DNA from: Salipiger profundus
GTDB lineage: Bacteria; Pseudomonadota; Alphaproteobacteria; Rhodobacterales; Rhodobacteraceae
Assembly: GCF_001969385.1 (NCBI RefSeq)
Contig: NZ_CP014796.1
Span: 1,257,501 to 1,321,500, forward strand
Direction of reading: 5' to 3'
DNA length: 64,000 nt
Below the pieces are notes generated by a model that saw nothing but the letters and a program-made list of their open reading frames with translations, was not told the DNA's origin and ran no database searches. The translations under genes and the position numbers were made by a program. Shown here piece after piece: positions 15,483 through 46,972 of the stretch (positions are counted from its first letter, which is position 1; each line of letters starts with the position of its first letter).

Positions 15483-16609
<1,127 letters not shown>

Positions 16610-16772
16610 GCAGTCTCCCTCCACAGTGGTGTGTTGTCCTTACGCTCTGGGCGCTTGGCTCGAGTATGGGTGCGCGATCGCATACCGAACAATACAGCCA
16701 ATGGTGGGTATTTCCCGAGATGGACCGCGCGCGCACCCTGTTTCATAGTCGCTTGAGGGAGGGAAGCGTACG

Positions 16773-17501: not shown

Positions 17502-18491
17502 GTGGACCGGAAGACAGGGGCGGAACGGCCGGTGCGGCGCAGCTTATTTCTCATCATTCTCGCGGTGCTCTCCGGCTGTGCGGGGCGACACAACTGGCTG
17601 GCCTCGGCAGGCGAAGAGGCCCACCGGGTCGAAGAGCTCTTCTGGGTTCTCCTTGTGGGGGCCGCGATCATCTGGACCGGGGTGATCGGCGCTGCCGTCT
17701 ACGCCCAGCGCCGGCAGATCGACCCGTCTCTCGAAAAGCAGGCCCGTCGCTTCATCGTCTGGGGCGGCGCGGTATTACCGACCGTCCTCGTGGGCGGCCT
17801 CCTGATCTGGGGACTGGTCATCCTGCGCGACATCACCAGTGACGAGGGTGACCTGACCATCCGGGTGGACGGCGAACGCTGGTGGTGGCGGGTGATCTAC
17901 GAAACGCCCGAAGGCGACGTGGTCACCGCCAACGAGATCCGGCTTCCGGTCGGACAGACGGCGCTGTTCCGGCTCACCGCCGACGACGTGATCCACAGTT
18001 TCTGGGTGCCCGCGCTTGGCGGCAAGATGGACATGATCCCCGGCCGCGAAACCCAGCTTGCGCTCACGCCGCGCAAGACCGGCAACTGGGGCGGGCTCTG
18101 CGCCGAATTCTGCGGCGGCGCCCACGCACTGATGCGCTTCGATGCCATCGTCATGGAGGAGGCCGACTTCGAGGCCTGGCTCGCGCATGAGGCCGAACCC
18201 GCCGAGGTCGCCGAAAGCGACCCCGGCTACACGGTCTTCGACGAGGAAGGCTGCGGCGCCTGCCACACAATCCGCGGCACCGAGGCCGAGGGCCCCGTCG
18301 GTCCCGACCTCACCCACCTGGCCGCCCGCGAGAAGCTCGGCGCCGGCATCTACGAGATGACGCCCGACAACATGGCGCGCTGGATCACTGACACGCACGA
18401 GATGAAGCCCGACATCGACATGCCCCCCTACCCCGACCTCTCCGGCGCGCGGCTCGACCAGCTCGTCGCCTTCCTGATGAGCCTGGACTGA
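17502..18491 (+). CDS. coxB: caa3-type cytochrome c oxidase subunit II fused to cytochrome c
   Basis: Subunit II of a haem-copper oxidase with a C-terminal haem domain (329 residues from the GTG at 17502; an alternative GTG at 17532 gives 319). Order: signal/lipobox LAVLSGC (C26), two membrane helices (about 47-68 and 86-108), the CuA cupredoxin domain, then cytochrome c. CuA ligands are all present: H165, C200, E202, C204, H208, M211 (CAEFCGGAHALM). The haem motif is CGACH at 251-255, with a likely axial methionine in DIDMPPYP. The fusion marks a caa3-type oxidase taking electrons from periplasmic cytochromes. Neither start has a strong ribosome site. Confidence 0.94.
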   Translation: MDRKTGAERPVRRSLFLIILAVLSGCAGRHNWLASAGEEAHRVEELFWVLLVGAAIIWTGVIGAAVYAQRRQIDPSLEKQARRFIVWGGAVLPTVLVGGLLIWGLVILRDITSDEGDLTIRVDGERWWWRVIYETPEGDVVTANEIRLPVGQTALFRLTADDVIHSFWVPALGGKMDMIPGRETQLALTPRKTGNWGGLCAEFCGGAHALMRFDAIVMEEADFEAWLAHEAEPAEVAESDPGYTVFDEEGCGACHTIRGTEAEGPVGPDLTHLAAREKLGAGIYEMTPDNMARWITDTHEMKPDIDMPPYPDLSGARLDQLVAFLMSLD

Positions 18492-18496
18492 CGCGC

Positions 18497-21052
18497 ATGA
18501 CCAAAGAGATCGACCTGTCGAAACTCCCGCCGCCCGAGCCCTACGACGAGGCGCGCAACCAGGCCCAGCGCAAGCGCCTCATGGACGTCTGGCGCGAACC
18601 GCCCGGCTGGAAAGTCATCTCGGCGGTCAACAACGATCACATCGGCAAGTGGTACCTGCTGACCTCCTTCGGCTTCTTCACCTTCGCCGGCATCCTCGCG
18701 CTGCTGATCCGGGTGCAGCTCGCGGTTCCGAACAACGAGCTGTTCAGCCAGAGTCTCTACAACCAGCTGTTCACGCTGCACGGCACGGCGATGATGTTCC
18801 TCTTCGCGGTGCCGATCTTCGAGGCGGTGGCGATCCTCGTGCTGCCCGAGATCCTCGGCGCGCGCGACCTGCCGTTCCCGCGCCTGTCGGCCTTCGGCTT
18901 CTGGTGCTTCGTCATCGGCGGCGTCTTCGTCTGCGTCTCGATCTTCTTCGGCGTCGCGCCAGACGGCGGCTGGTTCATGTATACGCCGCTGTCGTCCGAC
19001 CCGGACTACTCGGGCCTCGGCACCGACATCTGGCTTCTGGGCCTGTCGTTCATCGAGGTCAGCTCGATCGCCGCCGCCGTCGAGCTGATCGTCGGCGTGC
19101 TGAAGTCGCGTCCCCCGGGGATGCGGCTGAACCTCATGCCGCTCTACTGCTGGTACGTGCTGGTCGTCGCGGGGATGATCCTCTTCGCCTTCCCGCCGCT
19201 GATCGCCGGCGACCTGCTTCTCGAGATGGAGCGCGCCTTTGGCTGGGCCTTCTTCGACGTGGACCGGGGCGGCGACCCGCTGCTGTGGCAGCACCTGTTC
19301 TGGATCTTCGGCCACCCCGAGGTCTACATCATCTTCCTGCCCTCGATCGCGCTCATCGCGACCATGCTGCCGACCTTCGCCGGCCGGCCCATGGTGGGCC
19401 ATTCATGGATCGTGCTGAGCGCGGTGGGCGTGGCCTTCCTGAGCTTCGGGCTCTGGGTGCACCACATGTTCACCACCGGCCTGCCAGAGATATCGCTGAG
19501 CTTCTTCTCGGCCGCGTCCGAGGCCGTGGCGGTGCCCACCGGCATCCAGATCTTCTGCTTCATCGCGACGATGCTCGTCTCGAAGGTCCGCCATTCGGTG
19601 CCGATGCTCTTTGCCGGCGGCGCGTTGGCGATCTTCGTCTTCGGCGGGCTGACCGGCGTCATGGTCGCGCTGGTGCCCTTCGACTGGCAGGCGCACGACA
19701 GCTACTTCGTCGTGGCGCACCTGCATTACACGCTGATCGGCGGCATGCTGTTCCCGCTCTTCGCCGGCATCCACTACTGGTATCCCTTCGTCACCCAGCG
19801 AAAGATGAACGACCGCGCCGGCACCTGGAGCTTCTGGCTGATGTTCGGCGGCTTCAACCTTGCCTTCCTGCCGATGCACTGGACCGGCATCATGGGCATG
19901 CCGCGCCGGGTCTGGACCTATGACCTCAGCGATGGCTGGGCGGTGCTCAACATGGTCTCGACCGTGGGCGCCTTCGTCTTCGCGGCGGGCTTCGCGGTGC
20001 TGGCGGTCAACGTGCTCTGGCCGCGCGGCAAGCAGCCGCCCACGACGCGCAACCTCTGGAACGCCGGCACCATGGAGTGGGGCCAGGAAGTGCCGGACAA
20101 GCCTTGGGGCATCCGCTCGATTCCCTATATCCACACCCGCTACCCGCTGTGGGAACAGCCCGACATCCTCGGCCAGATCGACCGGGGCGAGTGGTTCCTC
20201 CCCGACGCCGAGGAAGGCAAGCGCGAGCTGATCGTCACCGACATCCTCGACGCGCGCCCGCTCTTCGTGCAGCGCGTCGGCGGCCCCAGCTTCCTGACAA
20301 TCGGGTCGGCGGTCTGTCTCGGGCTGGTGTTCATCCTCGCGACCTTCCACCTCTGGGCGCTGACCCTGCTGTTCGGCGCGGGCTTCGTCGGCTTCACCCT
20401 GTGGTGGCTCTGGACCGGCACCTCGCAGATCCCGGAGAAGCCCGAGAAATATGCGGGCCGCGGGCTGACGCTGCCGACCTACGCGCAGGGCAACCGCTCG
20501 CCCGGCTGGTGGGCTGTCTTCATCACCATGACCGGCGACATGACCGCCTTCATGGGTCTGGTGTTCAGCTACTTCTTCTACTGGACGGCGCTCGACGACT
20601 TCTTCCCAACGGCCGGGCAGCTTCCGGACTTCGGCTGGCTGCTGCTCGGCCTTGCCCTGATGCTCGGCTCGTGGCTGATGACCGTCACCGCGCGCAACCG
20701 GCTGGGCGCATGGGAGCGCGGGCAGGCGATGGCACTGCTGCTCGGCGCGCTGCCGGTGGGGCTGGCGGGAATCGGCGCATGGGCATGGGCGGCGTGGACG
20801 AAGGGGCTCGACCCCACCGCCAACAGCTTCGACGCGATGGTCTGGATGCTGATCCTGTGGCTGGGCCTGCACCTGCTGCTGAGCTGGGTCATGCACCTTT
20901 ATACGACGGCCCGCATCTGGCGACGGATCTGCACCGGCGACTATCGCGCGGACCTGATGAACCTCACGCTCTTCACCCACTTCCTCGCGCTGACGGCGGT
21001 GGTCACCTTCGCTCTGCTCGCGCTATTCCCGATGCTGATGGGGGTGATGTGA
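18497..21052 (+). CDS. Cytochrome c oxidase subunit I fused to subunit III
   Basis: An 851-residue membrane protein joining the catalytic subunit I (about 1-560) to a subunit III-like region (about 650-851). Active-site residues are present: low-spin haem H95 and H410, CuB/cross-link H273 and Y277 in GHPEVY, CuB pair H322-H323, and high-spin haem H408 (HLHYT). It reduces oxygen to water and pumps protons. I+III fusions are typical of caa3-type oxidases. The gene starts 5 bases after coxB and overlaps the next gene as TGATG. No separate subunit III or haem A synthase gene is in the window. Confidence 0.95.
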   Translation: MTKEIDLSKLPPPEPYDEARNQAQRKRLMDVWREPPGWKVISAVNNDHIGKWYLLTSFGFFTFAGILALLIRVQLAVPNNELFSQSLYNQLFTLHGTAMMFLFAVPIFEAVAILVLPEILGARDLPFPRLSAFGFWCFVIGGVFVCVSIFFGVAPDGGWFMYTPLSSDPDYSGLGTDIWLLGLSFIEVSSIAAAVELIVGVLKSRPPGMRLNLMPLYCWYVLVVAGMILFAFPPLIAGDLLLEMERAFGWAFFDVDRGGDPLLWQHLFWIFGHPEVYIIFLPSIALIATMLPTFAGRPMVGHSWIVLSAVGVAFLSFGLWVHHMFTTGLPEISLSFFSAASEAVAVPTGIQIFCFIATMLVSKVRHSVPMLFAGGALAIFVFGGLTGVMVALVPFDWQAHDSYFVVAHLHYTLIGGMLFPLFAGIHYWYPFVTQRKMNDRAGTWSFWLMFGGFNLAFLPMHWTGIMGMPRRVWTYDLSDGWAVLNMVSTVGAFVFAAGFAVLAVNVLWPRGKQPPTTRNLWNAGTMEWGQEVPDKPWGIRSIPYIHTRYPLWEQPDILGQIDRGEWFLPDAEEGKRELIVTDILDARPLFVQRVGGPSFLTIGSAVCLGLVFILATFHLWALTLLFGAGFVGFTLWWLWTGTSQIPEKPEKYAGRGLTLPTYAQGNRSPGWWAVFITMTGDMTAFMGLVFSYFFYWTALDDFFPTAGQLPDFGWLLLGLALMLGSWLMTVTARNRLGAWERGQAMALLLGALPVGLAGIGAWAWAAWTKGLDPTANSFDAMVWMLILWLGLHLLLSWVMHLYTTARIWRRICTGDYRADLMNLTLFTHFLALTAVVTFALLALFPMLMGVM

Positions 21053-23191: not shown

Positions 23192-23809
23192 TCAGGCCGA
23201 ACGGGCCTTGGCGATCGCGCCGGTCAGCGTCTCGCGGTCGAGCACACCGCCGTAGAGTGTGGTGCCGATGGCAAAGGCCGGCGTCCCCCGGAAGCCAAGG
23301 GCCACCGCCTGCCTGTCGTTGCGCTGCAACAGCGCATTCCATTTGTCGGCGTTCTCGCGGTAGCTCGCCTGGGCCTCCTCGAGGGTGACAACGGCCCCCA
23401 CCACCTCTTCGACCTGCTCCTGCGTGAGCCGGGCCTCGGTGTCCATCAGCGCCGCGTTGACCGCCGCGTAGCGGTCGAGCCCGACCGCGCCCAGCGCCAG
23501 CCGCGTGGCATAGGTCGAGGGCGGCCCGAAAATCGGCCAGTCCTTCATCACCAGCCGTACGTTGCCGTCGGCCTCCACCACGTCCCGCAGCAGCGGGTGC
23601 ATGGCTTTGCAGTAGGGGCACTGGTAGTCGAAATACTCGACGATGGTGACGTCGCCCTCTGGGTTGCCCTGCTCGGGCGCCACCGGATCGTTCAGCACCT
23701 CGTCGATGCTCGGCGACTGCGCGCGGGCGAGATGCGGCAGCCCGACGACGCTGCCCAGCGCGCCGGCGGTCAGCCCGGCGCCGATGAGCGCCCTGCGGTT
23801 GATGGTCAT
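23192..23809 (-). CDS. Exported DsbA-family thiol-disulfide oxidoreductase
   Basis: A 205-residue DsbA-like protein. A twin-arginine-like leader (NRRALIGAG, cut near ARAQSP) is followed by a thioredoxin fold with the active site CPYC (C64-C67) and the cis-proline loop GFRGTPAFAIG. It probably oxidises or isomerises disulfides in exported proteins. The ATG at 23809 has an AGGAG site. It heads in the same direction as the L,D-transpeptidase, TlpA-like and DsbD genes, forming a thiol-redox cluster next to the cytochrome genes. Confidence 0.9.
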   Translation of the reverse strand: MTINRRALIGAGLTAGALGSVVGLPHLARAQSPSIDEVLNDPVAPEQGNPEGDVTIVEYFDYQCPYCKAMHPLLRDVVEADGNVRLVMKDWPIFGPPSTYATRLALGAVGLDRYAAVNAALMDTEARLTQEQVEEVVGAVVTLEEAQASYRENADKWNALLQRNDRQAVALGFRGTPAFAIGTTLYGGVLDRETLTGAIAKARSA

Positions 23810-23843
23810 GTCATTCTCCTCTCTGGGGTCGGTTCGATGTGGC

Positions 23844-24743
23844 TCAGCCCGGCTCCGGCGGCAGCGCGTCGAGCGTCTGTTCCGCCATGCCGGCAATATC
23901 GGGCGTGCCCGAGGCCGGAGACGCGGCGGGGCTCTGCCCCCCGTCCGCGATGTCCGACGGCGGGCGGGTGTACTTGCCGGTTTCCGCCGCGCTCAGCACG
24001 ATCACGCGCGTGCCAGAGCTCACCTGGTCGGCAAGATGGATGACGTCCTGGTTGAACAGCCGGATGCAGCCCGAGGACACCGCCTTGCCGATGGACCACG
24101 GGCTGCGGGTGCCGTGGATGCGGTAGAGCGTGTCCTCGCCGCCCTGGTGCAGGTAGAGCGCGCGGGCGCCGAGCGGGTTGTCGAGCCCGCCCTCCATGCC
24201 GTCCTCGAACTGCGTGTAGACGTCGGGTTCGCGCTCGATCATGCTCTGCGTCGGCGTCCACGTCGGCCAGTCGCGCTGGTAGGGGATCCTGGCCTCGCCC
24301 GAGAACTCGCGCCCCGCCGCGCCCACGGCCACCGTGTAGCGCATCGCCGTGTCGTCGCCCTGCAGGTGGTAGAGCCGCTTGGCGCCGGGATCGACGATGA
24401 TCGTGCCCGGCTCGAACGGCGCGTAGTAATCGACGAGCTGGCGCTTCTTGTCCTCGCTGAGATACTTGTCTTCGATCGCCGGCACCTGCAGCCCGTTATC
24501 CTCGGTGGCCGCGTACATGGCGCGCGTCTCGGGGCTGAGCGGCTGCTTGCGCGGCGGCTCCGGCGGCACCTCGACCACCTCCTGCAGGTTGCCGGTGTCG
24601 GACATCACGGTGTCGGGGGTGGGTTGGGGTTGCGGCGCGGTCACCTGCGCCGGGGAGGTGGAGGCCGGTGGCTGCGTGCAGGCGGCGAGCAGCGCCGCGA
24701 CGGTCAGCCCCGCCGCTGCCCTGATGCGGGAAGAGGGTGTCAT
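23844..24743 (-). CDS. L,D-transpeptidase (YkuD family) lipoprotein
   Basis: A 299-residue lipoprotein with lipobox LLAAC (C22) and a proline-rich linker (24-70). The YkuD catalytic domain (about 110-235) contains H210 and nucleophile C226 in [18 protein letters not shown]. Such enzymes make 3-3 crosslinks in peptidoglycan or attach proteins to it. Because the active cysteine must be kept reduced, its place between DsbA-like and TlpA/DsbD genes is sensible. Its start overlaps the stop of the TlpA-like gene (ATGA). Confidence 0.92.
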
Positions 24744-25558
24744 GTCGTGCCTTTCGAAAGTGTGGTCATGCGCCGGAGCAGTTCGGCGCGGGAGATCTCG
24801 CCCGTGTGGGTCCCGACGAGCCGCCCCTCGGCATCGAGGAACAGCGTCGCGGGCAGGCCCCTTGCGCCATAGGTCGCCATCAGGGCCCTCGCCGGGTCGA
24901 GGTAGATGCCCTCGCGGGCCAGACCAGCCTGCTCGAGAAAGCGTGTAATCTGCGGCGGCTGCTCGCCCTGGTTCACGAAGAGGATCGGCAGATCACCGCC
25001 GTCGGCGACCTCCATCATCATCGGCATCTCGCGGCGGCACGGAGGGCACCACGACGCCCACAGGTTGACGACGGCGGGACCATCAAGCGCGGTGAGGGTC
25101 AACGGCGCGCCGCCGAGCGCATGCAGCGGCACGTCGGGGGCCGGTCGGCCGCGCGGATCGGGAAACGCCGCCAGAAGGCCGAAGCCCAGCGCGACCGCGG
25201 CGAGCGCGAGCCCGCCAAGCGGCAGCGCGCCGCGGAGATCCCGCAGGGCCGTGACGGCCAGCGCGGCGCCAAGCCCGGCCAGCCCGAAGCCCACCGAGAA
25301 ACCACCCTGCCAGACCTTGAGCACGTCCAGCGGGGCCTCGGCGAAGACCGCGAGGTTCTGCGCCACGTAGCCCGCGCGCGCCGCGATCAGCCCGGTGACG
25401 ACAAGGCGCATCGCCTGCACCGCATGGCGCGCCGGGGCACCGCGCCGGCGGGCACGGATGTCGGCCAGCTCGGCGCCGCCAAGCAGCACGGCGCAGCCGA
25501 GGATGGCCGCGAGCCGGGCGGCGTCGAAGACCAGCGGCCCGAGCGCGACCGAGCTCAT
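24740..25558 (-). CDS. TlpA-like thioredoxin with N-terminal Lgt-like membrane domain
   Basis: A 272-residue protein in two parts. Residues 1-135 form about four membrane helices that resemble part of prolipoprotein diacylglyceryl transferase ([30 protein letters not shown]). Residues 138-270 are a periplasmic TlpA/ResA-like thioredoxin domain with CPPC (C171-C174) and the GLPATLFL cis-proline loop. It likely reduces disulfides, for example in apocytochrome c or the CuA site, using electrons from the adjacent DsbD. Start and stop both overlap neighbours (ATGA), so it is tightly coupled to dsbD and the transpeptidase. Whether the Lgt-like half has any lipid-transfer activity is doubtful, as only a fragment is present. 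Confidence 0.85.
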
Positions 25559-27357
25559 CGCGCGGCCTCGCGGAGGGCGGCGAGCAGCGCTTCCTCGTGA
25601 ACATCGCCCACGAGCCGCGTGCCGGGCACCTCGGCGCGGGCGGCGTCGAGAAAGACCATGGTCGGCGGCCCCGCCGCGCCCAGCAGGTCGAGCGCGCGTT
25701 GCGCTTCGTCATCGAAGTCGGAGACGTCGACCTTGATCGGGGTCACGCCTTCCAGCGCCGCAAGCACCTGCGGGTCCGACAGCGGTCCGCGTTCGATGCT
25801 GCGGCAGGTGGTGCACCAGTCGGCGGTGACATAGACCAGCGCGGGTGCTTCCGATGCCGCGAGCGCGCTCTCGAGCCCATCGGTGCCGGTGACGGTGGCG
25901 AAGGGGTCGGCTTGCGCAGCGGAGGCATCGCGCGCGGCCAGCGGGGCGAGCGGCTTCAGCGGGTCGACCGCGCCCATCGCGGCACCGACGCCCTGCAGCG
26001 CCCCGGCAAAACCGAGGATCACCGCGAGCGCGGCGACCAGCGGCGCGGGGGCTTCGCGCGGAAACAGCGCCGCGCCCGCGCCGATCAGCAGCGCCGACCA
26101 GAGCGCCAGCGTGACCGGCCCCGGCAGGATACGGCCCAGCATCCAGACCGCGAGCCCGAGGAACACGAGCCCGAACAGCTGCCGGATGCGCTCCATCCAC
26201 GCGCCCGAGCGCGGCAGCACCTGCGGACCGAAGGCCGCGACGGCCACCAGCGGCAGCCCCTGCCCCAGCCCCAGCGCGAACAGCGCCACGGCCCCGAGCA
26301 GCAGGTCGCCGCTCTGCGCGATGTAGAGCAGCGCCCCGGCCAGCGGCGCGGTCACGCAAGGCCCCACGATCAGCGCCGAGGTCACGCCCAACAATGCCGC
26401 CCCGGGCAGCGAGCCGCGACGCCCCTCGACCCGGTTCAGCCGGGCCGTCACGGCGGCGGGCATCCGCAACTCGAAGAGACCGAAGGCCGCGACGGCGAGC
26501 AGCACGAAGAGCCCGGCGGTCAGGATCACGGCAGGCGGCGACTGCAGCGCGATCTGCAGGTTCTCCCCGGACCACGCTGCCGCCGCGCCGATCAGTGCAA
26601 AGGCCCCGGCCATGCCCAGCACGTAGGCGCCGCCCAGAAGCGCTCCGCGCCGCGCCGAGGGTCGCTGGCTGCCACCTGCGACCATGCCCGCCACGATCGG
26701 GATCATCGGGAAAACACAAGGCGTGAGCGACAGCAGCAGCCCGAGCCCGAAGAAGCCGGCCACGACCATCAGCGTGCCGCCCGTCGAGAATCGTTCGATA
26801 AGCCCGTCGGTCTTCGCAAGCACGAGGCCGCCGTCGGCTGTCTGCTCGGGTTCAACCTCGGCCCCGGTGCCCGTGGAAGCGCCGTCACCCACCCGCGTGA
26901 AGCCGGAGCCCTGAAAGCCCTGCGTCGATTCCGCCGGTGACGCGCCGGGCGTGGACATCCCACCGTCCGCGCCAGCCTCGATGGTGCGGGTCTGTGGCGG
27001 ATAGCAGATGCTATCCTCTTCGCAGCCCTGCCAGCGCAGCGTAACCGGCCCATCGGCGCCTTCGATACGGGCCTGCACGCCCTCGTGGAAGATCTCGACC
27101 TCGCCGAAGTTCGGATCGTCCTTCATCTCGCCGTCTGGCAGCGCCATCGGCAGGGCCGCTCCCGAACCATCCTCGGCACCCATGAAATCGCGATAGAGAT
27201 AGTAACCTTCGGCGATCTCCCAGGTCGCGACCAGCGTGTCGCCCTCGCGCGCAACCTCGAGCCGGAACGCCTCGTCGGCCGGCAGCGGAGACTGTGCCGC
27301 GAGCGGCGCCGCAAGCGTTGTCAGGAAGACCATCAGGCAGAATCGGAGCATCATCAT
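25555..27357 (-). CDS. dsbD: Protein-disulfide reductase DsbD
   Basis: A 600-residue DsbD with all three parts. After a signal peptide (cut near LAAQSP) there is a periplasmic DsbD-alpha domain with the cysteines in CEEDSICYPP. Then follow eight membrane helices (about 190-430, with SLTPCVFPMIP and GPCVTAPLAGA cysteines) and a C-terminal thioredoxin domain with ADWCTTCRS. It carries electrons from cytosolic thioredoxin to periplasmic thiol proteins, here plausibly the TlpA-like protein encoded next. Three in-frame ATGs (27357, 27354, 27351) are possible starts; none has a strong ribosome site. It is the first gene of the dsbD-tlpA-ldt-dsbA run. Confidence 0.94.
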   Translation of the reverse strand: MMMLRFCLMVFLTTLAAPLAAQSPLPADEAFRLEVAREGDTLVATWEIAEGYYLYRDFMGAEDGSGAALPMALPDGEMKDDPNFGEVEIFHEGVQARIEGADGPVTLRWQGCEEDSICYPPQTRTIEAGADGGMSTPGASPAESTQGFQGSGFTRVGDGASTGTGAEVEPEQTADGGLVLAKTDGLIERFSTGGTLMVVAGFFGLGLLLSLTPCVFPMIPIVAGMVAGGSQRPSARRGALLGGAYVLGMAGAFALIGAAAAWSGENLQIALQSPPAVILTAGLFVLLAVAAFGLFELRMPAAVTARLNRVEGRRGSLPGAALLGVTSALIVGPCVTAPLAGALLYIAQSGDLLLGAVALFALGLGQGLPLVAVAAFGPQVLPRSGAWMERIRQLFGLVFLGLAVWMLGRILPGPVTLALWSALLIGAGAALFPREAPAPLVAALAVILGFAGALQGVGAAMGAVDPLKPLAPLAARDASAAQADPFATVTGTDGLESALAASEAPALVYVTADWCTTCRSIERGPLSDPQVLAALEGVTPIKVDVSDFDDEAQRALDLLGAAGPPTMVFLDAARAEVPGTRLVGDVHEEALLAALREAAR

Positions 27358-38896: not shown

Positions 38897-38915
38897 GGGC
38901 GGCCGTGCGCCGCCC
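38897..38915. terminator. Convergent hairpin terminator
   Basis: GGGCGGC (38897-38903) pairs with GCCGCCC (38909-38915) around a 5-base loop between the FdhF-like gene and the convergent zinc hydrolase gene. Confidence 0.6.
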
Positions 38916-39922
38916 TACTCCCACTCGAGTTCGGTAAAGGCCACCGTGGCGTTGCGCGGGTTGTAGGCCTCGAACAGTGACCAGTCGTCGGCTTCCTCCG
39001 CCGCGATGCGTCCCACCGCCTCCGACAGGCGCGCGCCCTCGTCCAGCGCCTTGCGCGTATCGCGCGCCAGCGTGTCGAGGTAGCGCTTGAGCGGCGCCGC
39101 ACCCTCGGGCCAGCCCATCACAGGCCCCCCGTGTCCCGGAATCATCCGGTCCGCCTCGATCTTCGCCATGTCGTCCAGAACCGCCTGCCATCCGCGCAGC
39201 GAGCCGTCCAGCGCTGGCGCATGGCGGTCGAACACCAGATCACCGGCGAACAGCGTGCCGGTTTGCGCGTCGAACACGGTCAGGTCTGTGCCGGTGTGCG
39301 CCAGCGGCCAGGCGCGCAGCCGCAGCGCCCGCCCCCCAAGATCGATCTCGGCCACGTCCTCGATGCCTCGATCCACCTGCGGCACGTCGCTGCCGAGAAA
39401 CGCCCCGGGCCCGATGAGCCGCGAGAAGCTCTCGAGGTAGCTCTCCCGCCGCTCCGCCAGCGCCCGCTGCAGCCCCGCATGACCGACGACCTCGGCCCCC
39501 GCGAAGACACCGGCCCCGAAGACGTGGTCCGGGTGCATGTGCGTCAGGATGACATGTGTCACCGGCAGGTCGCTGCGGACGCGGATCGCCCGCCACAGCG
39601 CTTCCCCGACCTGCGCCGAGCCGCCGCTGTCGATCACCGCGATGGCGGTCTCGCCCACCACGAAGCCAAGGTTCGACACGTCGCCGTGGTTCGCGGCATC
39701 CGGCTCGGCGATGGCGCCCGTGTGCACGTAGACCCCCGGCGCCGCCTCGATCACCGGCAGCACCGGCCCGGCCTGCGCGCAGGCTGCCCCCTCGACCGGG
39801 CGCGCGCGCAGGCCCGCCTCGCAGGCCGCGCGGGTCCCGGTGGCGTAGCCCGGCACCAGCGCCTCGCGACAGGCCTCGCCCTCCGCCAACGTCGCGCACA
39901 GCATCATCACCGCTTCGAACAT
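38915..39922 (-). CDS. Quinoprotein relay system zinc metallohydrolase (SoxH-like MBL fold)
   Basis: A 335-residue metallo-beta-lactamase-fold protein with the zinc motif THMHPDH (H128, H130, D132, H133) and a later H in PGHGGPVMG. The first ~60 residues (LCATLAEGEACREAL) contain several cysteines and look exported. It matches the family named 'quinoprotein relay system zinc metallohydrolase', related to SoxH of sulfur oxidation. Glyoxalase II-type members cleave thioesters, so it may release a product from a SoxYZ-like carrier. It is divergent from such a carrier gene (40050). ATG at 39922 with GAGGAGGG. Confidence 0.88.
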   Translation of the reverse strand: MFEAVMMLCATLAEGEACREALVPGYATGTRAACEAGLRARPVEGAACAQAGPVLPVIEAAPGVYVHTGAIAEPDAANHGDVSNLGFVVGETAIAVIDSGGSAQVGEALWRAIRVRSDLPVTHVILTHMHPDHVFGAGVFAGAEVVGHAGLQRALAERRESYLESFSRLIGPGAFLGSDVPQVDRGIEDVAEIDLGGRALRLRAWPLAHTGTDLTVFDAQTGTLFAGDLVFDRHAPALDGSLRGWQAVLDDMAKIEADRMIPGHGGPVMGWPEGAAPLKRYLDTLARDTRKALDEGARLSEAVGRIAAEEADDWSLFEAYNPRNATVAFTELEWE

Positions 39923-40049
39923 GTCGGGCCCTCCTCTCCAGCAGCCTCCTCCCGCGCGGAAAGCTGATCCACACCGACGATGGGCGCGGTATCGCGCGGC
40001 ACCCGTCTCTGGCATACTAAAGCCCTCAGACCATGCGAGGAGGAGGAGC

Positions 40050-40874
40050 ATGGACCATCGATCCCTGACCGCGGCCCTGCTGGCAGCGGCGCTTCTGGCG
40101 TCGCCGCTCAAGGCCGCCGACACCCCCAACCCGCTGACCGACAGCCCGACGTGGGACAGCCTGCGCGCCGACGTCACCGGGCAGGACACGCCGATACCCG
40201 CCGCCGACGGGCTGTTCACGCTCGACGCCCCCTACCGCGCCGAGGACGCCGCCACGGTGCCGCTGCGGATCGTGCAGGCCGATCCGTCGGTGCCGATCCG
40301 CGCCGCGACGGTGGTGATCGACGAGAACCCCGCGCCGGTGGCCGGCACCTTCACCTTTTCCGAGGCGATGGCGCCGCTCGACTTCGAGTTTCGGGTGCGG
40401 GTGAACCAGTATTCCAACGTGCGCGTCATCGCCGACACGCCGGGGGGGCTGCGGATGGACGGGCGCTTCGTGAAGGCCTCGGGCGGCTGCTCGGCGCCGG
40501 CCACGAAGGACCCGGAGCAGGCGCTCGCGGGCATGGGACAGATGAGGCTGCGCCTCTTCGGCCAGGAGCCTGCCGCGGAACCGGCCATGTCGACACCCCG
40601 GCGCGAGGCGCAGATCATGGTCCGCCACCCGAACTACTCGGGTCTGCAGCGCGACCAGATCACCCAGCTCTTCATCCCCGCGCATTTCATCGATCACCTC
40701 GAGGTCTGGCAGGGCGAGGAGCAGCTCTTCGCCATGGATGGCGGGATCTCGATCAGCGAGAACCCGGCCTTCCGCTTTTCCTACGACGACAACGGCGCCC
40801 CGGCGCTGACGGTCCGGGCCACCGACACCGAGGGCAACCGCTTCGAGACGGTCCTGCCCAAGGCCGGCGGTTGA
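40050..40874 (+). CDS. Quinoprotein dehydrogenase-associated SoxYZ-like carrier (copy 2)
   Basis: A 274-residue exported SoxY-SoxZ fusion homologous to 6951-7757. It shares the N-terminal TLDAPYR and VVIDENPAPVAG (copy 1: VILDENPMPVSA) and the SoxZ-like HPNYSGLQRDQITQLFIPA (copy 1: HPSHSGMQMDQIT). It has one cysteine, C147 in ASGGCSAPATKDPEQAL, matching C138 of copy 1. Conservation of this lone cysteine in two diverged copies supports a carrier function. It lies divergent from the zinc hydrolase with 127 bases between, and has a GGAGGAGG site before the ATG at 40050. Confidence 0.87.
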   Translation: MDHRSLTAALLAAALLASPLKAADTPNPLTDSPTWDSLRADVTGQDTPIPAADGLFTLDAPYRAEDAATVPLRIVQADPSVPIRAATVVIDENPAPVAGTFTFSEAMAPLDFEFRVRVNQYSNVRVIADTPGGLRMDGRFVKASGGCSAPATKDPEQALAGMGQMRLRLFGQEPAAEPAMSTPRREAQIMVRHPNYSGLQRDQITQLFIPAHFIDHLEVWQGEEQLFAMDGGISISENPAFRFSYDDNGAPALTVRATDTEGNRFETVLPKAGG

Positions 40875-40882
40875 CCCAGGTA

Positions 40883-40905
40883 GGGTGGGCACTCCCTGCC
40901 CACCC
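40883..40905. terminator. Convergent hairpin terminator
   Basis: GGGTGGGCA (40883-40891) pairs with TGCCCACCC (40897-40905) around CTCCC, between the SoxYZ-like gene and the convergent small exported protein gene. Confidence 0.7.
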
Positions 40906-40919
40906 GTCCCGGCATCGGC

Positions 40920-41273
40920 TCAGAAGAAACAGACCACCTCGGCCTCGGCCTGCGCCCGGCGCAGCGCCACGACAAGATCGTTCGCCGCCACGGCGCTGTT
41001 GAACACCGCCATGCGCTCGCCGCCGGTGAGCCGCATCGACAGCACGGTCTCCGCCTCGACGTAGGCCTCGTAGGGCAGGATCGAGGCGATCTCGTCGATC
41101 GAGCAGGAACACTGCCGCAGCGCCTGGCGGCTCTGGCCGTTGGCCGCCATGCAGCCGAAGACGTAGTCGGCCCGCGCCTCGGTCGGGTAGTCGTTGAGCC
41201 GCTCGGCCACGCTCTGCGCCGCGGCCATCCCCGGCGCGAGCGTCGCGGCGCAGACAAGCAGCGCGCGGATCAT
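40920..41273 (-). CDS. Small exported cysteine-containing protein of unknown function
   Basis: A 117-residue exported protein. The leader is cut near AAAQSV; the mature part is helical and contains C41 (YVFGCMAANG) and the pair C55-C57 (RQCSCSID), which could form disulfides or bind a metal or cluster. It is coupled by ATGA to the larger exported protein upstream. The two are in the second quinoprotein-associated group, next to the SoxYZ-like carrier and zinc hydrolase, so are likely part of the same periplasmic system. No family recognised. Confidence 0.75.
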   Translation of the reverse strand: MIRALLVCAATLAPGMAAAQSVAERLNDYPTEARADYVFGCMAANGQSRQALRQCSCSIDEIASILPYEAYVEAETVLSMRLTGGERMAVFNSAVAANDLVVALRRAQAEAEVVCFF

Positions 41274-41938
41274 TCCGCCGCCACCGTGTCGAAACGCAGC
41301 TCCGAAACGTAGCCCTCCGGATCGCCACCGACCTTCGGCGCCTCGGCCACGAGGCTCACGTACCAGCCGGGCACCGCCTCGGACATCGTGACACGCATCT
41401 CGAGATCACCGAACCCCTGCATCCGGTCGCGGTTCGGATCGTCGGAAAACGGACGCAGCGTGACCGTGCGCACCGGGCGCATCTCGCCACCGATCCGGGC
41501 CTCACCCTCCTCGATGTCGGCGGGACGGACCAGCGCCTCCTTCACCCGGTTGCGGATGTAGAAGGGAGAGCCCCCGGCGGTCTCGGCCATGTCGCGGATC
41601 ACGCTCTCGTAGAAGTACATGATCATCGGGTTGCCGACGCTCGCCGGAAAGCTGCCGAGGTTGCGGTGCTTGCCGTCCTGCAGGAACTGCAGGTTGGCGA
41701 GCACGGCCTCGCCCTCGGTGAACGACAGCGCGATCTCGCCGGTGTCGCGTTCCGCGGCTTCGGGCTTGGCGGCATTGGTCACGGTGCGGGTATAGTGCAG
41801 CACCTCGTCGCGCCGAACGTCGTCGAGCGTGCCCTCCTTGAACAGCAGGTCGTAGGTCTGCGTGGCCTCCGTCGTCGCCGCCGCCGCGGGCAGGGCGAGA
41901 CAGGCCACCGCCGCCATCAAAGCCAATGTCTTGCGCAT
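41270..41938 (-). CDS. Exported protein of unknown function
   Basis: A 222-residue exported protein with leader cut near AAAATTEA. The mature part looks beta-rich (YDLLFKEGTLDDV; RTVTLRPFSDDPNRDRMQGFGDLEMRVTMS) with a helical middle (MYFYESVIRDMAETAG). No cysteine or named motif stands out. It is coupled to the small cysteine-containing protein downstream and separated from the sensor kinase gene by a GC-rich repeat. Context suggests the quinoprotein relay group. Confidence 0.75.
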   Translation of the reverse strand: MRKTLALMAAVACLALPAAAATTEATQTYDLLFKEGTLDDVRRDEVLHYTRTVTNAAKPEAAERDTGEIALSFTEGEAVLANLQFLQDGKHRNLGSFPASVGNPMIMYFYESVIRDMAETAGGSPFYIRNRVKEALVRPADIEEGEARIGGEMRPVRTVTLRPFSDDPNRDRMQGFGDLEMRVTMSEAVPGWYVSLVAEAPKVGGDPEGYVSELRFDTVAAE

Positions 41939-42100: not shown

Positions 42101-44338
42101 TCACTCCGCCGCCGCCTCTTCCGGCGCCTGCCAGCGGATCTTCCACTCGATGAGCGGGCGCAGCCGCGACAGCTGCACCGGTTTCGTCAGCACCGAGAAC
42201 CCCTCGCGCGCGCCGGTCTTCAGAAGCTCGTTGCTGCGGTCGGCGGTGATCATGATCGCCGGCACCCGCACCCCCGACAGCGCGCGCACCGCCGCGATGG
42301 CGCGGTCGCCGGTGTCGCCGTCGTCGAGCTGGTAGTCGGCGAGGATGATGTCGGGCGGCATCCCCATGTCGCGGACGTGGCGCAGCGCCTCGGCGGTCGA
42401 GCCCGCCGCCAGCACGCTCGCACCCCATTGCTCGAGCTTGCCGGTGAAGGCGAAGAGCACGTCTGGATCGTTCTCGATCAGCAGCACGATGTGCGACATC
42501 TCGTAGTCCTCGACAGGCGTCCGGTCGCAGCCCTCCTGCGCACCCGGGGGCCGACCGGCGGCAATCTCCATCTCGATCGAGAACACCGAGCCGCTGCCCG
42601 GTTTCGAGCGCACCCGGACCTTGTGCCCGAGATGCCGGCAGGTGCGGTCGACGATCGACAGCCCCAGACCGACGCCAGAGCCCAGCGGCACGTTCTCGGC
42701 GCGGGCGAACTCCTCGAAGATCCGCTTCTGGTCCTTGCGCGAGATGCCGACGCCGGTGTCCCAGACCTGCAGCTCGACCCGGTCACCCCGGCGCCTGCAG
42801 CCGACCAGCACGCGCCCGCCGGCGGGGGTGTACTGGATCGCGTTCACCATCAGGTTCTGGATCGAGCGCAACAGGTAGACCGGGTCCGAGCGCACGAAGA
42901 CCATGCTTGGCACCACGTCGAGCTGCACCCCCTTGCGCTGCGCCAGCGGTGTCTGGTCCTCCCAGACGCTGCGCATCAGCGTGCCGAGGCACACGTCCGA
43001 GGGCGTCAGCGCCCGGTCGGCGCTTTCCAGCCGCGAGATGTCCAGCAGCGAGTGCAGCAGCTGCTCGATCGAGGCGAAGGAGCCGTCGAGCCGCTCGACC
43101 ATCGGCGCAAATCGGGTCTCGGCGGCGCTGTCGCGCAGCGTGGCAATCAGCAGCTTCGCGGCGTTGATGGGCTGCAGCAGGTCGTGGCTCGCCGCCGCGA
43201 GGAAGCGGGTCTTGGACGACACCGCCGCCTCGGCGCGTTCCTTGGCCAGCCGCAGCTCGTCCTCGACGCGGGCCATCTCGACGAACTGCTCGCGCAGCTG
43301 GGCGTTGGCGCGGGTCAGCTCGGCGGTGCGTTCGGCGACGCGGTTCTCGAGCATCTCGGTCGCGCGGGTTTCCAGCGTCACGTCCTTGAGCTCGAGCAGC
43401 ACGCCGCCGTCTGGCAGCCGGTGCGCGTGCAGGTCCAGCATCCGCCCCGTGGCGTGGCGCACCCGGCGGCGCAGGCGGCCCTGCCGCTCGAGCCGGTCGA
43501 GCCACTGCGCGATTTCCAGCGCGCCGGCCTCGGTGATGATCTCGTGGCGGGCGACGAAATCCAGCAGCCGCTGCAGCTCGGTGCCCTTCTGCAGCATCGT
43601 GTAGGGCAGCCCGAGCAGCTGCCGGAACTGCTGGTTGTACATCATCACCGCGCCCTCGGGAGAGAAGGTGCACACCCCCGAGGTCATGTTCTCGAACACC
43701 GCCTGCAGGTAGTCGGCCTGCGCGTCGATCAGGGTTTCCTTTTCCGACCGGTTGCGCCGGACGATGGCGGTGATCTCGGTGAGCAACAGCACGAGGTTCT
43801 CGGAACTCGTCCGCTGCAGGTTGATCTGGTACCAGCGGTCGCCTGCCAGCTCGAACACCAGCGACACGACCGAGGCCCCCACCCGGCTGCGCCGCGCCTG
43901 CGCCAGCGCCACGTCGAAATTGCCCTCGACGGTGACGAGATGGCGGCTCTCGGACATGGCGGCAAAGCAGTCCTCGACCGACAACCCGCGCTGCAGCCGG
44001 GCCGAGATGTCGGGCAGCAGCCGCAGGAAGATGTCGTTGCCCACCTCGAGCCGTCCGCCGGTGAACAGCGCCACGCCGCCGTCCATCGCCGAGAGCGCGT
44101 CGGCGAGGTTCTTGCGCATCCGCTCGCTGTCATCGCGGGCGTGGCGCAGCTCGTCGGTGGTACGTTCGAGATCGCGGGTCTTGGCCCAGACCTGCGCCTG
44201 CAGCGCGATGGCCGACTGAAAGGCGCCATAGGCCGAGCTGCCGACCTCGTGCTGCCGGTTGGCGCGGCGCATCAGCGCGTCGATGATCTTTGCCTGCCGG
44301 GCGACCTGTTGTTCGAGCGGCTCCTCGGGGTCGATCAT
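42101..44338 (-). CDS. Cytosolic PAS hybrid histidine kinase with C-terminal receiver
   Basis: A 745-residue hybrid kinase with no membrane segment. Order: coiled coil (about 5-85), a first PAS-like region (85-195), a second PAS (205-325), a coiled linker, HisKA with H385 (ASHDLLQPINAAK), HATPase (N-box NLMVNAIQYTPAGG; VWDTGVGI; GSGVGLGLSIV), and a receiver domain (about 625-735, ILADYQLDD). The 'SHDLLQP' group includes kinases controlling alcohol and C1 oxidation, such as FlhS of Paracoccus and ErcS-type kinases of Pseudomonas. It is coupled to the FIST gene (ATGA). The signal is likely cytosolic, possibly formaldehyde-related. Confidence 0.9.
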   Translation of the reverse strand: MIDPEEPLEQQVARQAKIIDALMRRANRQHEVGSSAYGAFQSAIALQAQVWAKTRDLERTTDELRHARDDSERMRKNLADALSAMDGGVALFTGGRLEVGNDIFLRLLPDISARLQRGLSVEDCFAAMSESRHLVTVEGNFDVALAQARRSRVGASVVSLVFELAGDRWYQINLQRTSSENLVLLLTEITAIVRRNRSEKETLIDAQADYLQAVFENMTSGVCTFSPEGAVMMYNQQFRQLLGLPYTMLQKGTELQRLLDFVARHEIITEAGALEIAQWLDRLERQGRLRRRVRHATGRMLDLHAHRLPDGGVLLELKDVTLETRATEMLENRVAERTAELTRANAQLREQFVEMARVEDELRLAKERAEAAVSSKTRFLAAASHDLLQPINAAKLLIATLRDSAAETRFAPMVERLDGSFASIEQLLHSLLDISRLESADRALTPSDVCLGTLMRSVWEDQTPLAQRKGVQLDVVPSMVFVRSDPVYLLRSIQNLMVNAIQYTPAGGRVLVGCRRRGDRVELQVWDTGVGISRKDQKRIFEEFARAENVPLGSGVGLGLSIVDRTCRHLGHKVRVRSKPGSGSVFSIEMEIAAGRPPGAQEGCDRTPVEDYEMSHIVLLIENDPDVLFAFTGKLEQWGASVLAAGSTAEALRHVRDMGMPPDIILADYQLDDGDTGDRAIAAVRALSGVRVPAIMITADRSNELLKTGAREGFSVLTKPVQLSRLRPLIEWKIRWQAPEEAAAE

Positions 44339-45492
44339 GCGAACTCCCTCCGCGGCGGCTCGAAGAAGGCGACCCCCACGAAGGTCTGGTTCACGTGCAC
44401 GCCGCAATGCTGCTCGCCGTAGGTGTTGAACCCGACGACACGGCGGCGGCGGAAGATCTCGCTCACCTCGCCGGTGAGCTGCTTCTGCTCGATCTCGAGC
44501 TTGCGCAGGACGCAGTCGAAGCCGAGCACGAAGTCAGGCTGCCCGTCGCGGCCGTCGCGCACGTCGAGCTCGGCCTCGAGGGTCTCGATGATCTCCTTGC
44601 CGCGCCCGAGCGTCAGGATCAGCCCGTCGTCGATCGCGCCCAGGAACGAGAGCGCATGCGCGCCCGGCGCGTCATGCACCGCGCGCACGTGGTAGTTCAT
44701 GTTCTGCCGCACCAGCATCGGGTTCTCGGCAAAGACCTGCGGCGACAGCTGCTCGACCGGGCAGCCGACGATGCGCGCGTATTCCAGCGCCGCCGGCGCG
44801 CCGTTGATCTCGAGCACCAGCCGCTCGTCGGGGATGGCGTTGGTCACCACCATCTGCCGCTCGGTCGGCAGGAAATGGTCGAAACCGAGGCCACGGAACT
44901 CGAGGTCGGTCTCGAGCAGCAGCAGCAGCGCGGCGTTGGTGTGGAACTGTCCATCGTGCAGCACGAAGGTCTCGCGGAAGGCAAGGTTGTCGCCCGCCGA
45001 GCCACCGAATACCGGCACCTCGCCAAGCGCCGCCTCGAGCGTGGCGACCAGCAGATCCTCCTGTTTCGACAGCCCGTCGGCAAGGATCAGCGCCAGCCGG
45101 TTCCAGCCGGCCGTGCGCTGGAACTGCGCGGCGTGGCTGCGGACCTGCCGGGCGATGCCCTTCATCGACATCGGCTTGAGCGGCGCGATCAGCATCGAGG
45201 CGCAGCGGAAGTGCGCGCGCGGAAAGGCGAGCAGCAGCAGCGCCTCGGTCTCGTAGCCTTCGGTGGTGATGGTGCCTGCCGTGGTGCAGCCGAAGACCGG
45301 CACGCCCCCGGCGCCCGCGTCGAGCGCAGCGGCCACCTCGTCGAGCGACAGCCCGTCGGGCACCAGCGCCAGCAGGAAACAGGTGTCGTCGAGGTCGACG
45401 GCGCGCAAAGCCTCCTCGACCGCCGCTTGGGCGCTCGTCTCGCGCGAGACGGCGATTCCGACGTATCTGGGCGCCGCCCCTTCCATCGCCAT
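44335..45492 (-). CDS. FIST-domain sensor protein
   Basis: A 385-residue protein with FIST_N (about 35-220) and FIST_C (about 230-365) domains, a family proposed to bind small ligands such as amino acids. Motifs include VPVFGCTTAGTI, ALILADGLSKQEDLLV and VPVFGGSAGDN. The FIST gene lies between a response regulator and a hybrid kinase, starts 6 bases after the regulator stop and overlaps the kinase start by ATGA. It could supply the input signal to the kinase. An alternative ATG at 45486 is two codons shorter. In Paracoccus, flhSR lies with a third gene; equivalence is my inference. Confidence 0.87.
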   Translation of the reverse strand: MAMEGAAPRYVGIAVSRETSAQAAVEEALRAVDLDDTCFLLALVPDGLSLDEVAAALDAGAGGVPVFGCTTAGTITTEGYETEALLLLAFPRAHFRCASMLIAPLKPMSMKGIARQVRSHAAQFQRTAGWNRLALILADGLSKQEDLLVATLEAALGEVPVFGGSAGDNLAFRETFVLHDGQFHTNAALLLLLETDLEFRGLGFDHFLPTERQMVVTNAIPDERLVLEINGAPAALEYARIVGCPVEQLSPQVFAENPMLVRQNMNYHVRAVHDAPGAHALSFLGAIDDGLILTLGRGKEIIETLEAELDVRDGRDGQPDFVLGFDCVLRKLEIEQKQLTGEVSEIFRRRRVVGFNTYGEQHCGVHVNQTFVGVAFFEPPRREFA

Positions 45493-45497
45493 TCCGG

Positions 45498-46223
45498 TCA
45501 GTGGCTCAGGAATGCCTGCGCATCGGCCTCGCCCGTGCCCATCGCCGTGGCCGGCTGCGCGCTTTCCACGAGCACCGCCGCCTGCGTCCGGTTCTGCACG
45601 CCGAGCCGCCGCAGCAGCGCGGTGATATGCGCCTTGACCGTGGCCTCGGCGAGCGACAGCTCGTAGGCGATCTGCTTGTTCGGCTTGCCCGCGCAGATCA
45701 GCTTCATGATCTTCTGCTGCTGCGGGGTCAGCTCGGCGAGCTTCGGGTGGGCCTCCTCGATCCGGTCGTCTGGCAGCTCGGTGATGCTGGTGCCCCGGTA
45801 GCCGGAATGGACGTATTTGCCGCCGCCCGCGATGTCGCGCAGCGCCTGCCGCAGCACCTGCGACGAGGCGTCCTTGGGCAGGAAACCGGCGGCGCCGTCC
45901 TCCATCAGCGCCTCCACCACCTGCGCCGAGGTCAGCGACGAGATCACCAGGATCGGCGCGTCGGGAAGCGCGGCCCGCAGCCGCTTGAAGCCCGAGATGC
46001 CGCAGACGTCCGGCAGCTTCAGGTCGAACATCACGAGATCGGGCGCAAAGCCGCTGTCGACCAGCTCGAGCGCCGCCCCGAGCGTCTGCGCCTTCTCGAC
46101 GCGCGCCTCGGGAAAGGTGAGCTGCAGCGCGGCGGCGAGCGCATCGCTGTAGAGCGGATGGTCGTCCACGATCGCGACAGAACGTATCGCACCCTGCGAC
46201 GGGGTGTCGGTCATGTCTTTCAT
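45498..46223 (-). CDS. LuxR/NarL-family response regulator
   Basis: A 241-residue response regulator. The receiver domain has the acidic pocket (IVDDHP) and phospho-acceptor D67 (LVMFDLKLPD); the C-terminal LuxR helix-turn-helix spans about 165-225 (ELTPQQQKIMKLICAGKPNKQIAYELSLAEATVKAH). Similar NarL-type regulators (FlhR, AgmR/ErbR types) activate alcohol- and formaldehyde-oxidation genes. It starts the three-gene module; ATG at 46223 has a GGGAGGA site. Probable targets are xoxF and the adhI operon, though no binding site is identified. Confidence 0.9.
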   Translation of the reverse strand: MKDMTDTPSQGAIRSVAIVDDHPLYSDALAAALQLTFPEARVEKAQTLGAALELVDSGFAPDLVMFDLKLPDVCGISGFKRLRAALPDAPILVISSLTSAQVVEALMEDGAAGFLPKDASSQVLRQALRDIAGGGKYVHSGYRGTSITELPDDRIEEAHPKLAELTPQQQKIMKLICAGKPNKQIAYELSLAEATVKAHITALLRRLGVQNRTQAAVLVESAQPATAMGTGEADAQAFLSH

Positions 46224-46345: not shown

Positions 46346-46972
46346 CTAGCGCAAAACGCCTTTCTGCTTGGCCACATGGGTAGCGATGAGATCCATCAGC
46401 GGCGGCGACAGGCAGTCGTAGGGCTCAAGCCCCAGTTCCCGCAGGCGGCCGCGGATCTCGTCCATGCGGTCCGGGTCGACCCCCGATTCGATGATCGACG
46501 ACACGAAGGCCGCGAATTCCGCCGGCGCCCAGCCGGTCTGCGGCGACAGTTCCGTGTGCACGAAGTCGAGCCCGTGGAACGGGTGGCCGGTGTCCTCGAT
46601 GCGGCCATACATGTGCACCCCGCAGCCCTTGCAGGCATGGCGCTGGATGGCGGCCGAGGCGTCTACGACCTCGAGCTTGTCGGCGTTCTCGGTCACCTTG
46701 AGCTTGTCGCGTCCGACCACCGCGACCTGGCTGAAGATCGCGCCCTCGGGCTTCCAGCATTTCGTGCAGCCGCAGACGTGGTTGTGGGCGGTCTGCGCCT
46801 CCAGCACGACCACCACCGGGTCACTGCTGCACTTGCACTTGAGCGAGCCGCCCGAGAACCCCGGAGTCGCCGGCTTCACGCCGTTGTCGACCTGGGGATG
46901 GATCTTCACGTGGCTGTATTTCGGCGCGGCGGTCTCCTCCTCGCCGCCGAAGAGCTTGTCGAGTATTCCCAT
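46346..46972 (-). CDS. gfa: S-(hydroxymethyl)glutathione synthase (glutathione-dependent formaldehyde-activating enzyme)
   Basis: A 208-residue zinc protein of the Gfa family. Cysteine ligands are C46 and C48 (CKC), C67, C69 and C72 (CGCTKC), and C114 and C117 (HACKGCGVH). Gfa is reported to promote formation of S-hydroxymethylglutathione from formaldehyde and glutathione, the substrate of AdhI at 15482-16609; its catalytic role is debated in the literature. It lies 122 bases upstream of nothing on the same operon: the response regulator gene starts before it and reads away at 46223. Full family length. Confidence 0.93.

Follow-up and report, generated by a model that had tools for sequence, protein, structure and literature searches.

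SoxYZ-like carriers and SoxH-like hydrolases that accompany quinoproteins pose a standing question in rare-earth alcohol oxidation, namely what their role is. This question is raised by a 64,000-nucleotide stretch of Salipiger profundus DNA (contig NZ_CP014796.1, positions 1,257,501 to 1,321,500; the whole stretch is referred to as the window), in which one such carrier gene lies beside a hydrolase gene at 38915-41938, while a second carrier gene lies far away, beyond the methanol dehydrogenase gene xoxF. The original prediction regarded this interval as a second quinoprotein locus and its proteins as a periplasmic relay, in which an oxidation product is held on a carrier cysteine and released by hydrolysis. 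Are there two systems, and do carrier and hydrolase act together? Our analysis supports, with high confidence, the anatomy described here and a link of both proteins to quinoproteins: the hydrolase-carrier end belongs to one xoxF methanol-oxidation cluster and has been displaced by a 21.5-kb segment. Chemistry at the carrier thiol is our best explanation of function, to which we assign a probability of roughly one in three, and a direct relay between carrier and hydrolase is a hypothesis that looks doubtful for this lineage.

A single xoxF cluster split in the window

No quinoprotein gene is present at 38915-41938. The quinoprotein of the cluster is encoded at 12221-14026 on the reverse strand and matches the family of methanol dehydrogenases dependent on pyrroloquinoline quinone (PQQ) over its cut-off (TIGR03075, 782 bits); we take it to be XoxF on the basis of the original prediction, its gene neighbours and established knowledge. 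The more specific label XoxF5 is likewise assumed from the literature on relatives and not from a tree of these sequences. We assign the window to the Rhodobacteraceae, since matches to its carriers and its cluster are found in named records, among them those of Salipiger, Roseobacter and Ruegeria. A search of 248 genomes of this family yielded 31 in which the hydrolase (TIGR04559, quinoprotein relay system zinc metallohydrolase 2; hydrolase 2 in the following) exceeds its cut-off. Thirty family regions were compared, comprising L163-L191, from 29 genomes besides those of the window and G175, and L192, a second region of G175. The usual order in these relatives begins with Gfa, a NarL-type regulator, a NosP-like protein, a NahK-like kinase, two unnamed proteins (p222 and p117), carrier 2 on the opposite strand and the hydrolase, and continues with FlhA, FghA, XoxG, XoxF, a cytochrome, XoxJ, a CXXCW protein, carrier 1 on the opposite strand and a beta-propeller protein; named relatives mostly share this order. 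Hydrolase 2 is found in 29 of the 30 regions, carrier 2, p117 and p222 in 28 each, FlhA in 24, XoxF in 21, carrier 1 in nine and Gfa in seven, with several regions stopping at a contig end, some being ordered otherwise (e.g. L188) and L192 having none of these genes. One of the regions (L174) has hydrolase 2 and lacks carrier 2 within its 12 kb.

The segment at 17388-38914, which splits the cluster in the window, is absent between the two halves in Salipiger thiooxidans (L196) and S. pentaromativorans (L193); in S. thiooxidans the homologue of window position 17387 is followed, after about 100 bp, by the homologue of position 38917. Because most relatives are colinear and S. thiooxidans joins the halves, we consider the wide separation a local rearrangement. 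Thus, the distance between the two carriers that had been pointed out is real in the window, but it does not reflect two systems, and the view of 38915-41938 as a second quinoprotein locus has to be given up. FlhA was not found near the hydrolase within the fetched DNA of S. bermudensis (L194, L195) and of a member of the same genus (L177), and the same DNA gave no blastn match longer than 250 bp to the 21.5-kb segment. The segment itself harbors a pair of oxidase genes (COX2-cytochrome c and COX1, 17502-21052), a group encoding DsbD, redoxin, YkuD and DsbA-like proteins (23192-27357) and other ordinary genes.

In a sample of 299 genomes drawn over the phylum, 54 exceed the carrier cut-off. 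In 33 of them the carrier lies in an uninterrupted frame; the other 21 were dropped, as their match contained in-frame stops such as adjacent separate soxY and soxZ genes would give. Counting only matches over the curated cut-offs, hydrolase 2 is present in 22 genomes and hydrolase 1 in 13, and together these are the same 33 genomes that have the carrier. A match to XoxF at E 1e-40 or better is present in 67 of the 299 genomes, including all 33. Outside this sample, 75 of 80 named carrier loci have hydrolase 2 inside the fetched DNA, and in one of the five others (L245) it is present outside the fetched stretch.

The carriers and their arm cysteine

Carrier 2, next to the hydrolase (40050-40874, forward strand), and its paralogue carrier 1 (6951-7757, forward strand) score 269 and 169 bits, respectively, against TIGR04557, named quinoprotein dehydrogenase-associated SoxYZ-like carrier, with a curated cut-off of 140 bits. 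In each of them the SoxY and SoxZ domains reside within one open frame, and a ribosome-binding-site-like AGGAGGAGGAG is located upstream of position 40050. As originally proposed, each protein has a single cysteine, which is C147 in carrier 2 (codon 40488-40490; arm VKASGGCSAP) and C138 in carrier 1 (codon 7362-7364; arm VKTSGQGACAAPP). The family names given to carriers and hydrolase were likewise sound, as the matches to TIGR04557 and TIGR04559 exceed the curated cut-offs.

In an alignment based on a profile of 33 carriers, this cysteine coincides with the GGC of SoxY in solved Protein Data Bank chains. It is retained in all 38 carriers sampled across the phylum in addition to both window copies, and in the family regions in 28/28 copies of carrier 2 and 9/9 of carrier 1, so that the proposed conservation of the internal cysteine is borne out and the variability among homologues that would have refuted the original prediction was not seen. 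Beyond the first 17 positions, 37 of the 38 sampled carriers have no second cysteine, and the remaining one (G231) has one extra. The N-termini of the carriers appear signal-like by eye; a crude signal rule is passed by 26/28 and 9/9 of the relatives and by carrier 1 of the window, while carrier 2 of the window is missed by it. Taken together, the carriers are predicted to be exported SoxYZ fusions with their sole mature cysteine on a swinging arm of the GGC type.

The two window carriers are old paralogues. Relatives of carrier 1 form one clade (10 rows in the tree, support 100/100) with an arm of its own, KT(S/T)G(Q/T/K)GAC(A/S)APP, in all nine family loci and the window, and this clade is a lineage variant of the known carrier family. 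Another clade (100/100) unites the carriers paired with hydrolase 1, which have GGGC in the arm. Among named records, the closest carriers are those of Salipiger, at 81-83% identity. Compared to the SoxYZ of the thiosulfate pathway, the window carriers share the domains and the position of the arm cysteine, but they are fused, their cysteine is internal, and they remain under the cut-offs for true SoxY (TIGR04488, 125 bits; 40 and 51.5 bits) and true SoxZ (TIGR04490, 76 bits; 40 and 53 bits). A separate match to SoxZ, scoring 107 bits, is located elsewhere in the genome, at C1:518112-518393.

Both carrier and hydrolase are members of known NCBIfam families, and the idea of a relay is already contained in the established names. 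According to PMC11237559, two fused SoxYZ clades occur near PQQ alcohol dehydrogenase or xoxF genes and near soxH, and a figure legend in PMC5934484 places soxH in the xoxF5 cluster of strain La 6 and Rhodobacter sphaeroides. For the Pseudomonas putida pair PP_2677 and PP_2678, roles in maturation, redox control and PQQ protection have been suggested (PMC12997753). The window carriers share with TIGR04557 proteins, among them PP_2677 and presumably the SoxYZ-S2 and SoxYZ-S4 of PMC11237559 (likened by description, not by sequence), the fusion, the single arm cysteine and the quinoprotein context, whereas carrier 1 differs in belonging to a separate paralogue clade with its own arm.

The hydrolase, its leader and its metal site

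The SoxH-like di-metal hydrolase (38915-39922, reverse strand, 335 residues) matches TIGR04559 with 380 bits at a cut-off of 280, and it is indeed divergent from carrier 2, as had been stated, with 127 bp between the start codons. Its seven metal ligands, H128, H130, D132, H133, H209, D228 and H264 (HxHxDH, H, D, H), are retained in 30/30 family members. An AlphaFold2 (AF2) model, with a predicted local distance difference test (pLDDT) score of 96, matches metallo-beta-lactamase folds (best 8d2z, E 1.2e-21). The protein remains under the cut-offs of GloB (TIGR03413, 25 bits against 200.8) and of subclass B1 metallo-beta-lactamases (NF033088, 40 bits against 200).

While the hydrolase shares the full ligand set with TIGR04559, and lies close to xoxF in relatives of the window, the Rhodobacteraceae proteins differ by a fused N-terminal leader and by having no recognisable secretion signal. 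They start with MFEA or similar, followed by a four-cysteine segment of about 55 residues, which in the window (residues 1-55, 39758-39922, reverse strand) takes the place of a signal peptide. The leader cysteines C9, C18, C34 and C48 are invariant in all 30 family hydrolases, and the AF2 model of the leader shows a strand-strand-helix-strand fold in which the very first residues form a strand. A stand-alone four-cysteine homologue of the leader (E 1e-9) is encoded 12 kb before the window (G000, C1:1245113-1245289; L304); neither the leader nor this homologue matched a Pfam family. The leader-fused, apparently unexported hydrolase is a lineage variant of a known family; an export signal was not counted as part of the curated TIGR04559 definition.

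Possible roles of carrier and hydrolase

As our best explanation, each carrier might be a periplasmic thiol that captures a reactive compound generated at the quinoprotein; the likeliest candidate is an aldehyde, which would be bound as a thiohemiacetal or as a thioester. Where the hydrolase is exported, di-metal hydrolysis would most likely release the bound group; in Rhodobacteraceae a small thiol ester is the more likely substrate of the hydrolase, and the carrier might be discharged in another way. The families, the conservation of the cysteine and the metal ligands, the synteny and the co-occurrence are read from sequence, while the locations of the proteins, the adduct and its hydrolysis are inferred. 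Consistent with this explanation are family matches over the cut-offs, the conserved arm cysteine, the co-occurrence, the complete ligand set, the metallo-beta-lactamase fold, the colinear cluster, the signal-like N-termini on hydrolases of other lineages and the separate clade of carriers paired with hydrolase 1. In its logic, a thiol adduct followed by thioester hydrolysis, the proposal resembles the glutathione pathway of formaldehyde oxidation (Gfa, FlhA and FghA), from which it differs in that aldehyde binding by the carrier is only putative and in that the glutathione pathway is itself encoded in the same cluster.

Several observations weigh against this explanation. Since the cluster also encodes Gfa, FlhA and FghA, there is no obvious need for a further route that uses a protein-bound intermediate. 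None of 29 Rhodobacteraceae hydrolase 2 proteins passes the signal rule, nor does the window copy, whereas outside the family 19/21 hydrolase 2 and 13/13 hydrolase 1 proteins do (32/34 together; the 21 include a G246 copy below the cut-off and exclude G175, a family member with the leader). The rule is a crude one, and its score of 0/18 for the CXXCW proteins may be due to the starts chosen. For the hydrolases of five loci (L205, L207, L209, L249 and L254), a stop codon immediately or one codon upstream of the start makes an upstream signal impossible. The Rhodobacteraceae hydrolase is predicted to be cytoplasmic, beside FlhA and FghA, and, having no recognisable export signal, may never meet the periplasmic carrier. 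As the two partners are predicted to reside in different compartments, the direct relay is the weakest step for the window, although it is conceivable that the folded hydrolase is exported together with a partner.

Further, the metal site is not kept everywhere. Another family includes three genomes (G019, G231 and G246; L120, L121 and L119) whose hydrolase 1 partner has NLHPDY where HxHxDH is expected and AGG instead of AGD, and also SHG, so that its metal site is incomplete; in G231 this is the sole hydrolase over a cut-off, and G246 has a second hydrolase-like protein, below the cut-off, that is likewise degenerate. Either a non-catalytic role or decay may account for the broken hydrolase 1. 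Carriers are also found without hydrolase 2: no TIGR04559 match over the cut-off was obtained in the whole genomes of Salipiger mucosus (L238), two Mameliella (L234, L255) and Mangrovicoccus (L226), where hydrolase 1 was not searched, and the lower matches of the two Mameliella (158-159 bits) are of the kind given by hydrolase 1. S. mucosus keeps both carriers, and the homologues of window positions 17387 and 40031 are only 73 bp apart, so the hydrolase is missing at that place. Four of 26 genomes with XoxF at 60% identity or more have neither carrier nor hydrolase over the cut-offs; therefore, the carrier is inessential to XoxF. Transposon mutants of P. putida, grown without rare earths, showed a minimal effect on short-chain alcohols (PMC12997753). 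Finally, a CXXCW rhodanese-like gene is found in 18/30 family regions and close to the carrier in several other loci, and such neighbours are as compatible with a chemistry of sulfur as with one of carbon. Thus, of the proposed periplasmic relay, the cysteine, the ligands and the co-occurrence in 33/299 genomes stand, while the absence of a recognisable export signal on the family's hydrolase, the broken partners and the carriers without hydrolase 2 speak against it. As a separate observation, the DNA of L238, L234 and L255 matches the window up to 17364-17387 and then continues with carrier-side sequence.

Two other explanations are serious rivals to the carrier-thiol chemistry. It is possible, if unlikely, that the system protects against sulfur, with the arm binding thiosulfate, sulfite or sulfane sulfur like SoxY and thereby shielding PQQ, and the hydrolase and the CXXCW protein clearing the bound sulfur. 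The arm of the carriers is the sulfur-binding arm of SoxY, the distribution of the CXXCW gene would be in line with this role, and a shielding of PQQ or methanol dehydrogenase against sulfur species has been proposed in PMC12997753 and PMC11237559. However, the latter also reports the fused clades from bacteria for which thiosulfate is not a known energy source and considers a carbon role likelier, and the window carriers are under the cut-offs of true SoxY and SoxZ. Rather unlikely, in our view, is a role in enzyme maturation, in which carrier, hydrolase and CXXCW protein would help in vicinal disulfide formation or cofactor loading of the quinoprotein. Such a role has been put forward in PMC12997753; it would agree with the co-localised cysteine proteins CXXCW and p117 and would also explain hydrolase partners with a broken metal site, but it is difficult to reconcile with the four of 26 XoxF genomes that have neither carrier nor hydrolase over cut-off and with the 34 genomes, out of 67 matching XoxF at E 1e-40, that lack the carrier.

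Sox and Xox homologues of Advenella have reportedly been linked to thiosulfate and tetrathionate oxidation. That the carriers and XoxF act in thiosulfate or tetrathionate oxidation proper is very improbable here: a passage on thiol dehydrotransferase in PMC9774590 and the 107-bit SoxZ match elsewhere in the genome might be quoted in its favor, but the cluster consists of methanol and formaldehyde genes. Sharp tests of what carriers and hydrolases do are offered by the family whose hydrolase is apparently no longer exported, by the genomes with a seemingly broken metal site and by those with carriers and no hydrolase 2.

p117, a small cysteine protein that accompanies XoxF

Two unnamed proteins with signal-like N-termini, which the original prediction did not cover, are encoded in what remains of the interval (40920-41273 and 41270-41938). 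One of them, p117 (40920-41273, reverse strand, 117 residues), is more novel than the carrier and represents our most unexpected result. Its gene is convergent to that of carrier 2; the protein has a signal-like N-terminus and ends in Cys-Phe-Phe. The cysteines C41, C55, C57 and C115 are invariant across 30 aligned members, and 72/72 copies at named loci match the four-cysteine pattern, including a C-terminal end of the Cys-Phe type. No Pfam or NCBIfam family was matched, isolated matches being far under the cut-offs. The AF2 model is all helical with a mean pLDDT of 84 (on average above 90 for blocks 31-80 and 101-117), and a structure search with this model gave no informative match. The adjoining p222 (41270-41938, reverse strand) also has a signal-like N-terminus, matches no Pfam or NCBIfam family and occurs alongside p117 in 28/29 hydrolase-bearing family loci; weaker relatives of p222 are present in L103, L109, L113 and L114.

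In the 299 genomes, p117 is found in 26, XoxF with at least 60% identity also in 26, and both sets comprise the same genomes (Fisher p 5e-38, ignoring relatedness); they cover nine family labels, and no other gene of the cluster served as a control. Identity was measured against the window protein and the 60% limit was set after the p117 list was known; in this sample no best XoxF match lies between 49% (G256) and 63% (G249), and any limit in this range gives the same set. Two of the positive XoxF calls rest on partial sequences, in G271 on two fragments (84-85% identity) and in G217 on a match to residues 178-600. In a replicate of 122 genomes of the order of G246, which shares G246, G249 and G294 with the first sample, a single long XoxF match of at least 60% is present in 18 (lowest 63%), and p117 occurs in 20, covering all 18. 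The two extras are G543, whose listed genus-mates both have XoxF, and G569, a fragmented assembly. Three genomes of the replicate (G564, G606 and G648) have a XoxF-like protein in two segments (49-53% and 59-65% identity) and no p117, the closest borderline case being G564 with about 60% over both segments. Either p117 is tied to one XoxF clade or the rule has exceptions in these three genomes. The genes for p117 and XoxF are located on one contig within 25 kb of each other in 19 of the 26 genomes and in 11 of 15 additional genomes, the smallest gap being 222 bp (G294).

It might be hypothesized that p117 serves the XoxF rare-earth methanol dehydrogenases of this clade as a dedicated partner that has so far gone unrecognised, possibly as an exported helical small subunit or a redox or metal chaperone, and that all genomes retaining such a XoxF retain p117 as well, both in Alphaproteobacteria and in a remote order that is probably the Burkholderiales (our guess for the order of G246). 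We give this hypothesis an even chance, having lowered it from slightly better odds because G564, G606 and G648 lack p117. As a protein that has no Pfam or NCBIfam family and coincides with XoxF in every genome of the 299-genome sample, p117 is a direct candidate for a missing component of lanthanide-dependent methanol oxidation, and its deletion could easily be tested in model methylotrophs.

Other genes in and around the cluster

The remaining genes of the half that contains xoxF are all on the reverse strand. They encode the rhodanese-like PQQ-associated CXXCW protein (10241-10945, start approximate; TIGR03865, 226 bits, cut-off 128), a XoxJ-like periplasmic binding protein (10780-11655; TIGR03871, 296 bits), a c-type cytochrome related to methanol metabolism (11612-12142; TIGR03874, 245 bits), the S-formylglutathione hydrolase FghA (14658-15482; TIGR02821, 421 bits) and the S-(hydroxymethyl)glutathione dehydrogenase FlhA (15482-16624; TIGR02818, 605 bits), each over its cut-off. 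A XoxG-like cytochrome c adjoining xoxF (14224-14661, start approximate) is below the cut-off of NF043008 with 90 bits. An unnamed open frame of 204 residues follows at 16773-17387, and its DNA is conserved beside FlhA in five Salipiger and Mameliella loci.

At the other end, again on the reverse strand, are a hybrid histidine kinase similar to NahK and ErcS' (42101-44341, start approximate; NF041832 and NF041831, below the cut-offs), a NosP-like protein (44335-45450, start approximate; NF041558, 356 bits, cut-off 450), an ErdR-like response regulator of the NarL type (45498-46223; NF041830, 151 bits, below the cut-off) and the S-(hydroxymethyl)glutathione synthase Gfa (46346-46972; TIGR02820, 333 bits, over the cut-off). 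The regulators at 42101-46223, which adjoin the carrier, resemble regulators of alcohol oxidation in P. putida and P. aeruginosa described in PMC12997753. The genome of the window has two further PQQ dehydrogenase-like genes (G000, C1:478991-480640 and C1:3504213-3505808), whose products are 38-39% identical to XoxF.

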